NCBI RefSeq assembly: GCF_030273315.1
Contig: NZ_CP127174.1
Span: 310,001 to 374,000, forward strand
DNA from: Natrialbaceae archaeon AArc-T1-2
GTDB taxonomy: Archaea > Halobacteriota > Halobacteria > Halobacteriales > Natrialbaceae
DNA: 64,000 nucleotides
Direction of reading: 5' to 3'
Shown: one piece after another, positions 5,325 to 35,306 of the stretch
Layout: the number at the start of each line of letters is the position of its first letter
Numbering within the stretch: position 1 is the first letter of the stretch
The notes under the pieces: generated by a model
Databases searched by the model: none
What the model was told of the DNA's origin: nothing
Seen by the model: the letters and a program-made list of their open reading frames with translations, nothing else
Program-made: the position numbers and the translations under genes

Positions 5325-6380
5325 TCACTCGAGCCGCGTCCACTCCAGGCCGAGCGGATCTGCGGGTGGCTCGAGCGGACTCGTCTGCAGCTCGGTCCTG
5401 ACGTCCGGTTCGTTGTACGACCGCGGTGCCACGTCGTTCGGTCCGTCGGGATAGAAGATCGACGCGAGCAGCTGCGCGTGTGCGCGCCCGACGCAGAGTT
5501 CGAACTGACCGCCGCCGTACATCCTGACGTCGTGGCGTTCACAGTACTCGATCGTCTCGAACAGCGACCGGATCGTGCCGAACCGCGACGGTTTGATGTT
5601 ACACCACTGCGCCGAAAACGGCCTGTCGCGAACGTCCTCGACGCCGGTGATGGGTGCGTCCCACGAGAGGCGATCCCGATTCGCTTCGAGCAGGTCCCGG
5701 ACGCCGTCGTCGACGGCCGGATCCTCCACGACTGCGTCGGGGAACGTCTCGAACACCGCTCGATAGAGCTCGCGCGAGGGCTGCTGGCCGACCTCGAGGT
5801 CGTCGTAGTGGCCTTTCAGATCGAGCACGCTGACCGCGTCGGTCGCCGCAAGCGTCGCGAACGTCTCCTCGGTCCAGTCCTCGCTCGGATCGAGTTTGAA
5901 CTCGCAGTCGGGATTGACCGCGAGGACGTCGGTCACTCGCGTGGGGTCTCCGTCCGGGACGCGATCGCTGGCGACGAACCGAACTGGGGACAGGTCGCGA
6001 TCGAGAACCGACGCGAGGTCCGTGTCGTTTTGGGTGAGTGCCAGATCGAGCGCTGCGCTTTCGAGCGCCCACCGTCTGTAGTTTCGGAAAACGTCCCGCT
6101 CGGGCGGTTTCGTCGGGAAGAGATCGGTCTCCTCGAGTCGTCTCGAGAACTCCTCGACGGTGTACTCGCCCGCAAAATCGAACGCCGGGGGGTCGGGCAT
6201 CGCCTCGTGATCGACGGCCTCGTAGGTGACGTCCTCGCCGGCCCCGAAGGCGTCGTCGGCGAGCAGGACGAACGTGGAGGTGACGCGGGTGGAACCGCCC
6301 GGTATCTCTCGACGGCGGCTGGTCCGCTCGTCGGTCTCGATCGCGAGCGGGAGGTCTGCGATACGATCGTACAGCGCCAT
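5325..6380 (-). CDS. Enolase-superfamily protein, specific reaction unknown
   Basis: 351 residues from the ATG at 6380 ([15 protein letters not shown]). It has the two-part layout of the enolase superfamily: an N-terminal capping domain and a barrel with [32 protein letters not shown] and [13 protein letters not shown], the last carrying the lysine expected late in the barrel. The Asp in LDLKG and the Glu in VEDP sit where metal ligands occur. A C-terminal [15 protein letters not shown] matches the conserved glycine-rich end of mandelate racemase/muconate lactonizing relatives. o-Succinylbenzoate synthase is a conceivable role, but no menaquinone genes are nearby. It is divergent from aroA. 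Confidence 0.7.
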
Positions 6381-10862: not shown

Positions 10863-10946
10863 GGTGGGGTGGCAGAGCGGCCCAACGCGCCTGCCTTGAG
10901 AGCAGGTGGCTGTCAAGCCTCATGGGTTCAAATCCCATCCCCACCG
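10863..10946 (+). tRNA. tRNA-Ser (anticodon UGA)
   Basis: 84 bases without encoded CCA. The acceptor stem pairs GGTGGGG (10863-10869) with CCCCACC (10939-10945), followed by discriminator G. The anticodon stem CCTGC/GCAGG encloses loop CTTGAGA with anticodon TGA at 10897-10899. A long variable arm (about 10907-10921) is as expected for class II serine tRNA. The T-arm is ATGGG-TTCAAAT-CCCAT. No intron is seen. Confidence 0.95.
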
Positions 10947-10947
10947 T

Positions 10948-10980
10948 ATTTTGCCGCGAGCAACGTCGCGAGCGGCAAAT
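10948..10980 (+). terminator. Hairpin just after tRNA-Ser
   Basis: TTTGCCGC (10950-10957) can pair with GCGGCAAA (10972-10979), with a 14-base loop, starting two bases after the tRNA. It may be a terminator or processing signal. The same design follows tRNA-Glu at 34534-34563. Confidence 0.5.
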
Positions 10981-11069
10981 CGTAACGGATGGATTTGAAC
11001 GAGAGGCGTCACAGCGCGCGAACGCAGTGAGCGAGCGCCGTCACGTGGTTCGGATCCCATCCCAGCCGT
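10981..11069 (+). repeat. tRNA-tail module with degenerate second copy of the tRNA-Ser 3' end
   Basis: Carries TGGATTTGAA (10990-10999, an inverted T-loop sequence), a GTCAC, a GCG-rich palindromic stretch with GAGCGAGCGC, and ends in GTGGTTC..ATCCCATCCCAGCCG (11045-11068), a mutated copy of the tRNA-Ser 3' end. The order and several blocks match the module after tRNA-Glu at 34564-34650. It resembles a relic of insertion at a tRNA attachment site. Confidence 0.55.
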
Positions 11070-26978: not shown

Positions 26979-27977
26979 ATGAGATCCGACGAAAACGATT
27001 CACGTGTCGTATCGCGCCGGAGTTTTACCGCGCTCAGTGTGGGGGCGCTTGCTGCAGGGTTCGCCGGCTGTCTCGGGGACGACCCACAGGAGAATAACGG
27101 CGGAGGCAACGGTGGCGCAGGAAGCAACGGTGACGCTGAGTACACCGTCTTCGCGTCGATGCCCGCAGTCTGGGACTTCGTCCGACAGACCGCTGGCGAT
27201 CACATGGAGGCGATCGACCTCGTTCCGATCGGCGAGCACGGCCACGACTGGACGCCCGAACCCGGGACGGTCGAGGAACTCGACGAGGCCGACGGCTTCG
27301 TCTATCTCCGTGACTTCGCGACCTGGCAGGACGACGCCGCAGATCAACTCGAAGAACGCGACGACGTCGTGGTGATCGAGGCCACAGAAGGGATCGAGTT
27401 CTTCGACAGCCCTGCGGAGGACAACGACGAGCACTTCTGGATGGACCCAGTCGAGTGCCAGGACGGCGTCGAGAACATTGCCGACGGCCTCGCCGAGATC
27501 GACCCGGACAACGCCGACGACTACGAGGCAAACGCCGCGGCGTTCAACGACGAACTCGAGGCACTCAACGACGACATCCACGACATCGTCGACCGGGCGG
27601 AACTCGAGGACATCGTCGTCGCTACCCACGACTCCTTCCAGTGGTGGAACCGTCGCTACGACATCAACATCCACTCGCCGGTCGGGACTTCGCCCGACGA
27701 CGCCGCTTCGGCGGCCGATGTCGAGGAAATCGAGACCCTGATCGAGGACATTGGTATCGAGCACGTCCTCTACGACGTCGGCGAACCCGCCCCGCTCGCG
27801 GATTCGCTCGCCGACGAGGTCGACGCAGAGATCCTGCCGCTCTCGCCGATCGAAACCCAGATCGACGGCAGCCCCGAGGTCGACCCCACCGTCGAGATGG
27901 AGCCTGACTGGGGGTACGTCGAGCACTTCCGTGAGATCAACCTGCCGACGCTCGAGACGGCACTCTGGGCGGAGTAG
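26979..27977 (+). CDS. Metal ABC transporter substrate-binding lipoprotein (Mn/Zn, cluster A-I)
   Basis: 332 residues. Tat and lipoprotein signal: SRRSFT at 12-17 and lipobox GFAGC with Cys 31, then a Gly/Asn-rich linker. The ZnuA/TroA fold is shown by IDLVPIGEHGHDWTPEPG, EHFWMDP and ATHDSFQWWNRRYDI, whose histidines are placed as metal ligands, and a late aspartate/glutamate (SLADEVDAEILPLSPIE). No long His-rich loop, which in this family is common in Zn carriers, so Mn is favoured. Encoded between sirR and the matching ATPase. Confidence 0.88.
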   Translation: MRSDENDSRVVSRRSFTALSVGALAAGFAGCLGDDPQENNGGGNGGAGSNGDAEYTVFASMPAVWDFVRQTAGDHMEAIDLVPIGEHGHDWTPEPGTVEELDEADGFVYLRDFATWQDDAADQLEERDDVVVIEATEGIEFFDSPAEDNDEHFWMDPVECQDGVENIADGLAEIDPDNADDYEANAAAFNDELEALNDDIHDIVDRAELEDIVVATHDSFQWWNRRYDINIHSPVGTSPDDAASAADVEEIETLIEDIGIEHVLYDVGEPAPLADSLADEVDAEILPLSPIETQIDGSPEVDPTVEMEPDWGYVEHFREINLPTLETALWAE

Positions 27978-34292: not shown

Positions 34293-34457
34293 GCGAGGGG
34301 AGTCGCGTTCGAACCCGAAAAGCGTTGAGAAGACGGCGAACGAGCGGTGCGTGAGGTGGTGCCATCGCCGTCGCGGAACGGAACGTTTTTTACTAGCCCC
34401 TGGCAACCAACGAGTGAAGCGTCACGGGCCACAGACGTGGTGAGTGACGTGGTGTCA

Positions 34458-34532
34458 GCTCCGTTGGTGTAGTCCGGCCAATCATTTCGGCCTTTCGAGC
34501 CGATGACCTGGGTTCAAATCCCAGACGGAGCA
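34458..34532 (+). tRNA. tRNA-Glu (anticodon UUC)
   Basis: 75 bases. Acceptor GCTCCGT (34458-34464) pairs with ACGGAGC (34525-34531), with discriminator A. The anticodon stem TCGGC/GCCGA encloses CTTTCGA, anticodon TTC. T-arm CTGGG-TTCAAAT-CCCAG. No encoded CCA, no intron. Confidence 0.96.
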
Positions 34533-34533
34533 C

Positions 34534-34563
34534 TTTTCCGCGAACAAATTCGTGAGCGGAAAA
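34534..34563 (+). terminator. Hairpin just after tRNA-Glu
   Basis: TTTTCCGC (34534-34541) and GCGGAAAA (34556-34563) form an 8-bp stem with a 14-base loop. Same position and loop size as after tRNA-Ser. Confidence 0.5.
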
Positions 34564-34650
34564 TGCGACCCTGGATTTGAATCAGACCAGTCACGCGCAG
34601 CGTAGCGAGCACGTCTGGGCGTGGTTCAAATCCCAGACGGAGCACTTTTC
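34564..34650 (+). repeat. tRNA-tail module with a perfect copy of the tRNA-Glu 3' end
   Basis: Bases 34623-34650 repeat 34511-34538 exactly over 28 bp (T-loop to acceptor end plus CACTTTTC). Between the copies lie the hairpin, an inverted T-arm-like TGGATTTGAA (34572-34581), GTCAC and a GCGCAGCGTAGCGAGC stretch. No integrase or cargo gene is present. It looks like a tiny insertion at a tRNA attachment site. Confidence 0.7.
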
Positions 34651-34841
34651 TGAGGAACGACGTGACGACGATCGTTCCGATCCGACGCCCGAACTCGAGC
34701 AGACGTCCATCACCGCTAGCAGCTCGGGTGCTGCTCAGAAGCCGGATCGCCGGTAATCGATGCTTACTCGAGAATCGCAAGACGGCAGTGCCGTAACGGT
34801 CGTCGGTCCTTTTGTCGGCTCGAGTCGAATTGATAGCTGCT

Positions 34842-35306
34842 ATGAGTGACGCTGTAGACGACAGCGACACCGGTGTCCCATCGGAGACCGAGAGACAGGA
34901 CGAGTCGACCCTGATCGCCAACGACGAGCGGCGGCGGAACATGTCGGCCATCAGTGGGATCGCGGCCATACTCGGCGCGTGGGTCGCCCTCTCGGTGTTG
35001 ATCTACGACGTCGGCGAAGCGACGCTGTGGAACAACGTCCTGATCGGGGCGGTCGTGTTCCTCGCTGCCGGGTACAACTTCTACCGGCTGAACAACGACA
35101 TCCCGTTGAGCGTCGGCGTCTCGGCGCTCGTGGCGGTGCTTGGTATCTGGTTGATCGTCGCGACGGCCGTCTTCGGGATGGCAGCGGGTGCGTTCTGGAG
35201 TACGGCCATCTCGGGGCTTCTCATTGCACTCCTCTCGGGATACAACGCCTACGAAGCCCGTGAAGCCGAGACGGTCGTCACCGAGGGCGAAGCCGAACCG
35301 CCCTGA
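34842..35306 (+). CDS. SPW-repeat-like membrane protein
   Basis: 154 residues from the ATG at 34842. An acidic hydrophilic head (1-35) is followed by two copies of a two-helix unit: SAISGIAAILGAWVALSVLI with LWNNVLIGAVVFLAAGYN, and SVGVSALVAVLGIWLIVATA with FWSTAISGLLIALLSGYNAY. The internal repeat of G-x-W...N-x-x-x-G-x-x-x-x-x-x-G-Y-N is the SPW-repeat pattern. Four membrane helices; function unknown. Confidence 0.75.
   Translation: MSDAVDDSDTGVPSETERQDESTLIANDERRRNMSAISGIAAILGAWVALSVLIYDVGEATLWNNVLIGAVVFLAAGYNFYRLNNDIPLSVGVSALVAVLGIWLIVATAVFGMAAGAFWSTAISGLLIALLSGYNAYEAREAETVVTEGEAEPP

Follow-up and report, generated by a model that had tools for sequence, protein, structure and literature searches.

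Gene-free two-hairpin units behind haloarchaeal tRNA genes, bounded by copies of the tRNA 3′ end

Integrative elements that use tRNA genes as attachment sites (IMEs, proviruses and genomic islands) insert at the tRNA 3′ end, leave the tRNA intact and are bounded by a direct repeat of its tail. REP and BIME sequences are short intergenic hairpins present in many copies, with no tie to tRNA genes and no arms derived from a target, and the attC sites of integron cassettes carry an R′ box of the form GTTRRRY. According to the passages on attC in PMC2727003, such a site is an imperfect hairpin with asymmetric internal loops, a variable tip and one favoured strand. Haloarchaea also carry MITEs, SMRs and PATEs, which are small non-coding mobile repeats with palindromes and are set out in a table in PMC3119063.

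The unit analysed here lies behind tRNA-Glu(TTC) in a 64,000-nucleotide stretch of the genome of Natrialbaceae archaeon AArc-T1-2 (contig NZ_CP127174.1, positions 310,001 to 374,000; hereafter the window, with position 1 its first nucleotide). Units of this kind run in the order hairpin A, inverted tRNA 3′ end, hairpin B, direct tRNA 3′ end. The features of the window are as follows.

34458-34533, plus strand: tRNA-Glu(TTC), host gene of the unit (ARAGORN, 34458-34533; Rfam, 34458-34532)
34511-34532, plus strand: the ‘tail’, that is, the last 22 nt of tRNA-Glu(TTC) (ARAGORN, Rfam)
34534-34563, plus strand: hairpin A, TTTTCCGC..GCGGAAAA, 8 pairs, with the inner GA/GA motif GCGAACAAATTCGTGAGC (sequence)
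34564-34584, minus strand: inverted copy of the tRNA 3′ end (sequence, repeat search, arm alignment), comprising the T-loop and T-stem part, 34571-34584, and a diverged acceptor part, 34564-34570
34585-34622, plus strand: core of hairpin B, AGACCAGTC..GCGTAGC..GTCTGGGCGTG (sequence, alignment)
34623-34650, plus strand: tRNA tail and 6 further nt in direct orientation, every base as in 34511-34538 (repeat search)
34646-34672, plus strand: what is left of hairpin A from a second, decayed unit, TTCTGAGGAACGACGTGACGACGA (sequence comparison)
10863-10946, plus strand: tRNA-Ser(TGA), the window's only other tRNA (ARAGORN)
10947-11068, plus strand: unit behind tRNA-Ser(TGA), with hairpin A, inverted tail at about 10987-11000, hairpin B and tail copy at 11047-11068 (sequence, tail-copy scan)

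A first-pass annotation of this DNA had pointed to an exact 28-bp repeat of the tRNA end with a 112-bp period that encloses a hairpin and an inverted T-loop sequence. The repeat search bore this out, with 28 of 28 bases identical between 34511-34538 and 34623-34650 at a spacing of 112 bp, and with an inverted pair, 34573-34584 and 34622-34633, matching at 92%. The insert of about 84 bp had also been taken to be gene-free; a mechanical minus-strand ORF (34514-34969) overlaps the repeat, and nothing suggests that it is a gene. The 3′ foot of hairpin B extends into the tail copy, and the strand downstream of tRNA-Glu is predicted to fold at -45.4 kcal/mol (z = -3.3). Searching 34300-34850 against Rfam returned no family except tRNA and a sub-threshold tRNA-like match; the gathering score was reached by the tRNA only, and the unit itself matched no known RNA family. 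The second unit to which the remnant at 34646-34672 corresponds is longer in genome G036. Behind tRNA-Ser(TGA), the tail copy matches the tRNA tail at 18 of 22 positions. Elsewhere in the window, a GCGAGC..GCGAGC hairpin motif lies on the minus strand at 27794-27811, with no tRNA nearby.

With the tRNA-site integrative elements these units share insertion at the tRNA 3′ end, a direct tail repeat around a precise insertion and an intact tRNA, but they differ from them in a period of about 90-140 bp, no integrase inside, an inverted tail, tandem arrays and two hairpins. Like REP and BIME sequences they are short multi-copy intergenic hairpins, yet only the units are tied to tRNAs and have target-derived arms. 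With integron cassettes, as portrayed in the relevant passages of PMC2727003, they have in common tandem units behind one fixed site, imperfect hairpins with asymmetric internal loops and a variable tip, and a partial target copy that ends each unit. They differ from integron arrays in that they carry no gene, the target is a tRNA T-loop rather than attI, the strand favoured by sequence polarity is the tRNA-sense strand and both arms copy the host tRNA. The unit periods, up to the roughly 280 bp covered, contain no cassette ORF, and the tail, GTTCAAAT/GTTCGAAT, has C at the fourth base of the would-be R′ box. A search of 21 genomes for the integron integrase (TIGR02249) gave none over the curated cut-off and weak partial matches only. 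Whereas MITEs, SMRs and PATEs, as tabulated in PMC3119063, have fixed ends and scattered sites, the end repeats of the units copy the target tRNA, and practically all units lie behind tRNAs. Their arms follow the local tRNA, in place of the fixed, transposon-related terminal inverted repeats of MITEs, and the tail is duplicated, as is not the case for PATEs and the IS200-IS605 type.

The arms were compared with the tRNAs across a larger collection of units. At least 7 of the 8 bases of the inverted T-loop are matched in 94 of 111 units. Beyond the T-loop, gapped alignment over 90 testable units singled out the unit's own tRNA as the sole best match of the inverted arm in 26, where chance would give at most 5.5, and in 38 no tRNA beat it; the mean rank was 0.193, against 0.5 by chance. 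(The other 12 of 102 units were left out for having too few comparison tRNAs or no tail.) An ungapped version of the test was weaker, with the own tRNA uniquely best in 14 of 102. Several inverted arms extend to the very end of the tRNA. Because the inverted arm fits the 3′ end of its own tRNA, a unit can be read as tail> A <tail B tail>, and one single-stranded period can form a dumbbell. Unit periods, searched up to about 280 bp, are mostly 90-140 bp and gene-free. Units occur, singly or in tandem, at 199 of 339 non-redundant tRNA loci of mixed origin, a share inflated by loci picked via the pattern described below; 57 of the loci have two to five. The five-unit array behind tRNA-Ser(TGA) in G115 (L308) contains a repeated two-unit block. 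In several genomes two to four tRNA-Asp genes stand in tandem, and some of the gaps between them hold units (L347, L367, L084).

The first-pass annotation had proposed a search for tRNA genes followed by a copy of their own 3′ end, and such copies proved abundant. Counting matches of at least 16 of the last 22 tRNA nucleotides that start no more than 200 bp downstream, we found them behind 20 of 45 tRNAs, about half, in this genome, and behind 15/43 in G036, 18/39 in G206, 10/39 in G247, 31/45 in G021 and 3/10 in G001. Pooled, these come to 97 of 221 loci, a count that takes in a few non-unit repeats, such as tandem tRNA-Asp genes, and that rests on 46 tRNA matches here plus loci of five relatives, three of them sampled in part (G001, 10 loci; G206, 39; G247, 39). 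A tRNA-Pro(CGG) of this genome, absent from our own tRNA list, also has a unit. We also scanned genomes for the pattern GATTYGAA-N15..45-TTCRAATC together with a control pattern. In this 3.36-Mb genome the pattern has eight matches and the control none; seven matches lie just behind a tRNA, and the eighth, inside a tRNA-Ser gene, was rejected as a unit. Across 294 genomes of the phylum, the pattern is present in 52 of the 53 that belong to the window's order, at 1 to 24 places each and with no control matches, and in 28 of the other 241, nearly all at a single place. The pattern is thus haloarchaeal. From the 38 matches in G115 and G058, 16 loci were read in detail. A stricter pattern for a family of B hairpins, run against about 85,000 species, hit at least 120 stretches. 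The 80 loci among the matches listed are haloarchaeal by title, bar one MAG titled only ‘Euryarchaeota archaeon’. Among the matches listed, 79 of 83 sit 33-327 bp downstream of a same-strand tRNA, of 27 isotypes in all, which is not the dispersed targeting of MITEs; three of the remaining four are cut off at the end of the locus and one (L438) lies behind a 3.1-kb insertion at tRNA-Val. The tail copy is identical over 20 of 20 nucleotides in 43 of these 79 listed matches, and matches at 17 or more of 20 in 75.

Three specific patterns found no unit in IMG/VR; a generic hairpin pattern gave at least 80 loci there, which we took as chance because that pattern is by itself unspecific. Phage records held no unit, only the tRNA-like attachment sites of Sulfolobus viruses. 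Plasmid records yielded mostly tRNA matches, along with two megaplasmid units, one lone tRNA-Phe tail and one tRNA-less B-like hairpin. The lone tail (L549:2501-2544), on Haloarcula taiwanensis plasmid pNYT1, is perhaps a plasmid attachment site, and the sequence behind it resembles the sequence behind the unit in L295. The B-like hairpin (L548:2470-2560), on a Halomicrobium urmianum plasmid, has neither tRNA nor T-loop.

At three tRNAs, Arg-GCG, His and Val-TAC, a filled site is longer than its empty counterpart by precisely one unit and its tail copy. In the Arg-GCG case, the flank found directly after the tRNA in G021 is, from its first base, the one that follows the tail copy in G036 (86% over 105 bp); at tRNA-His, G247 is empty and G206 filled, and at Val-TAC, G247 is empty and G001 filled, each with a precise junction. 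At tRNA-Tyr the offset is equal in three empty genomes and the filled G021. In all there were 28 filled/empty flank matches, most of which leave the junction unresolved because flank lengths differ; one, at Leu-GAG, was a repeat in the downstream flank with no unit and was discarded. The attachment-site geometry read earlier from the sequence alone is supported, and relatives have empty sites. The empty-site check proposed earlier was meant for tRNA-Glu; the precise junctions were found at these other tRNAs. A fixed feature of low divergence everywhere, with no empty sites and no copies at other tRNAs, had been named as the outcome that would speak against insertion; it is not what we see.

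Unit content differs between congeners at the same tRNA, and different tRNAs have hairpin cores in common. Among 99 units, hairpin B is common (at least 80% identity) to 144 of 4681 pairs at different tRNAs and hairpin A to 23, never both, while among 147 pairs at the same tRNA in different genomes A is shared in 15, B in 14 and both in 7. At tRNA-Glu of G206 an additional unit lies on the tRNA side of the one that G206 has in common with G036; this is the sole case of a unit gained between a tRNA and an older unit, too few for a rule of insertion polarity. A unit behind tRNA-Glu of G206 matches, base for base over 154 nt but between other flanks, a unit that follows a broken tRNA-Glu on a megaplasmid of Natrinema thermotolerans. 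In that locus (L295:2930-3190) an insert interrupts the tRNA-Glu gene, which ARAGORN misses, and the unit is kept. In G021, a chimeric orphan unit with no tRNA (L572, reverse strand, about 6130-6370) combines two isotypes: its left tail is that of Arg-CCT and its right tail that of Val-TAC, with the join at the T-loop.

Over 265 unit segments, the tRNA-sense strand carries 289 instances of the GA/GA hairpin motif, GA-RC-loop-GY-GAG, and the opposite strand 5. The two pairs just inside the inverted T-loop are G-T in 46 cases and A-C in 2; single mismatches deeper in hairpin B are G-T in 40 and A-C in 24, the latter mostly C-A (21), so that polarity is less clear there than at the outer pairs. 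When units were circularised, the sense strand was the more stable in 196 of 246 with DNA parameters and 208 of 246 with RNA parameters, the advantage with DNA energies being small (mean 1.9 kcal/mol). At ten tRNA-Glu loci the 8 pairs of hairpin A are 100% paired, and 4 of the 8 have changed on both sides. Loops of three nucleotides are GNA in 90 of 135 cases, and loops of four are GNRA in 0 of 38. In the relevant parts of PMC6479982 and PMC11101458, GNA loops are described as forming extraordinarily stable DNA minihairpins. The 289:5 polarity, together with GNA loops and no GNRA, is as would be expected of folded single-stranded DNA and hints at such a form; the polarity and the covariation are compatible with an RNA as well.

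What is best supported by these data is a non-autonomous element that inserts precisely at tRNA 3′ ends. By analogy with integron cassettes, we infer that a folded single strand may be joined to its target by a tyrosine recombinase acting in trans. One period, 112 nt here, would close on itself as a single strand into a dumbbell, with the tRNA tail as a double-stranded stem and hairpins A and B as caps. The stem would serve as the attachment core, which a tyrosine recombinase, host or element-borne, would join to the identical sequence of the tRNA (T-loop GTTCRAATC); the tRNA would stay intact and the insert would be followed by a copy of the tail. Later recombination between tails could remove, multiply or exchange units. 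In our judgement there is about an even chance that this reading is right: hairpin elements of haloarchaea, non-coding and non-autonomous, that form one family and insert at tRNA 3′ ends in this folded, recombinase-joined form. More tentatively, haloarchaeal tRNA genes might be platforms at which gene-free dumbbells of single-stranded DNA integrate, an archaeal counterpart of the integron in which each isotype has its private cassette lineage and cores are shuffled at the universal T-loop.

The suggestion in the first-pass annotation of a non-autonomous element mobilised in trans is largely upheld as regards the element, through precise empty sites and copies at many tRNAs. As regards the mobilising partner, we identified no gene-bearing parent or recombinase around seven tRNAs of G000, G036 and G021. 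Distal tail copies were found for three of the seven (G036 Thr, G036 Gly and G021 Arg-TCT), Tyr proved to be a plain unit, and for the other three a search of 40-60 kb gave none. At tRNAs of G036, two integrase-type insertions of 13.3 and 6.0 kb carry long repeats from the anticodon arm and have a right end without hairpin B, and so lack these hairpin ends; the G021 Arg-TCT insertion (20.3 kb) and that of L438 have B-like hairpins at the right end, which can be read as insertion into an older array. Integrase-bearing insertions were rejected as parents, having no consistent tie to hairpin A or B.

Several other explanations account for part of this evidence. Replication template switching, with A and B as fold-back points and the tail copied backwards after A and forwards after B, would create units on the spot, after which ordinary homologous recombination between tRNA sequences would disperse them. 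It accounts for an inverted arm that copies the local tRNA and for the constant abutment of A on the 3′ end and of B on the T-loop, and the repeated two-unit block in G115 resembles tail-tail recombination; but it leaves unexplained the strand polarity, the preference for GNA loops and, above all, the recurrence of the same B cores across tRNAs and genera, which keeps it from sufficing, and we consider it unlikely. Doubtful, too, is a functional RNA, a structured 3′ trailer co-transcribed with the tRNA that regulates its folding or 3′ processing and whose inverted arm has two possible partners, the T-arm of the tRNA and the tail copy. The sense-strand bias in motif, G-T pairs and fold and the compensatory changes in hairpin A suit it, as does the identity of 90-94% of the window's tRNA-Glu unit in G036, G021, G008 and G206 against some 78-82% for the syntenic region upstream in G021, G008 and G206 (the unit itself falls within two of these alignments; in G036 the upstream region is not alignable). 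Yet about half of tRNAs have no unit, orthologous tRNAs are filled in one congener and empty in another, so that occurrence is patchy with fast turnover, cores vary freely, and none of the four-nucleotide loops is GNRA.

It is improbable that the units are relics of ordinary integrative elements, left as attachment-site remnants after repeated integration at tRNA ends and internal deletion. The B-like hairpins at the right ends of two large insertions would be in keeping with this, but independent deletions would not yield one two-hairpin layout behind 27 isotypes among the matches listed, and the two G036 insertions lack that layout. A plain duplication of the tRNA tail, which the first-pass annotation had offered as its other explanation, is too simple, since the insert is structured and its inverted tail is matched to the local tRNA. 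A tail duplication of great age, or chance, draws on the age of the tRNA-Glu unit, old enough to be common to several genera, but is contradicted by the empty sites, by turnover and by the many tRNAs that have copies matched to them, and we regard it as very improbable indeed.

No description of these units came up in the open-access literature searched, including PMC3119063, PMC8371274, PMC12558985, PMC6479982, PMC11101458 and PMC2727003; novelty rests on that literature, and the units may have been described elsewhere. A feature that accompanies about half of the tRNA genes here, and is present in nearly every tested genome of the order, appears to be undescribed in the literature searched. 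The gain and loss of modules among related species suggests a tiny mobile DNA of an undescribed kind. Should the reading as single-stranded DNA be true, archaea would perform site-specific recombination of folded strands that carry no genes, and fast-evolving DNA would form a layer behind the ends of their tRNA genes; should the units act as RNA instead, they would constitute a tRNA-specific trailer system that spans much of the tRNA set.
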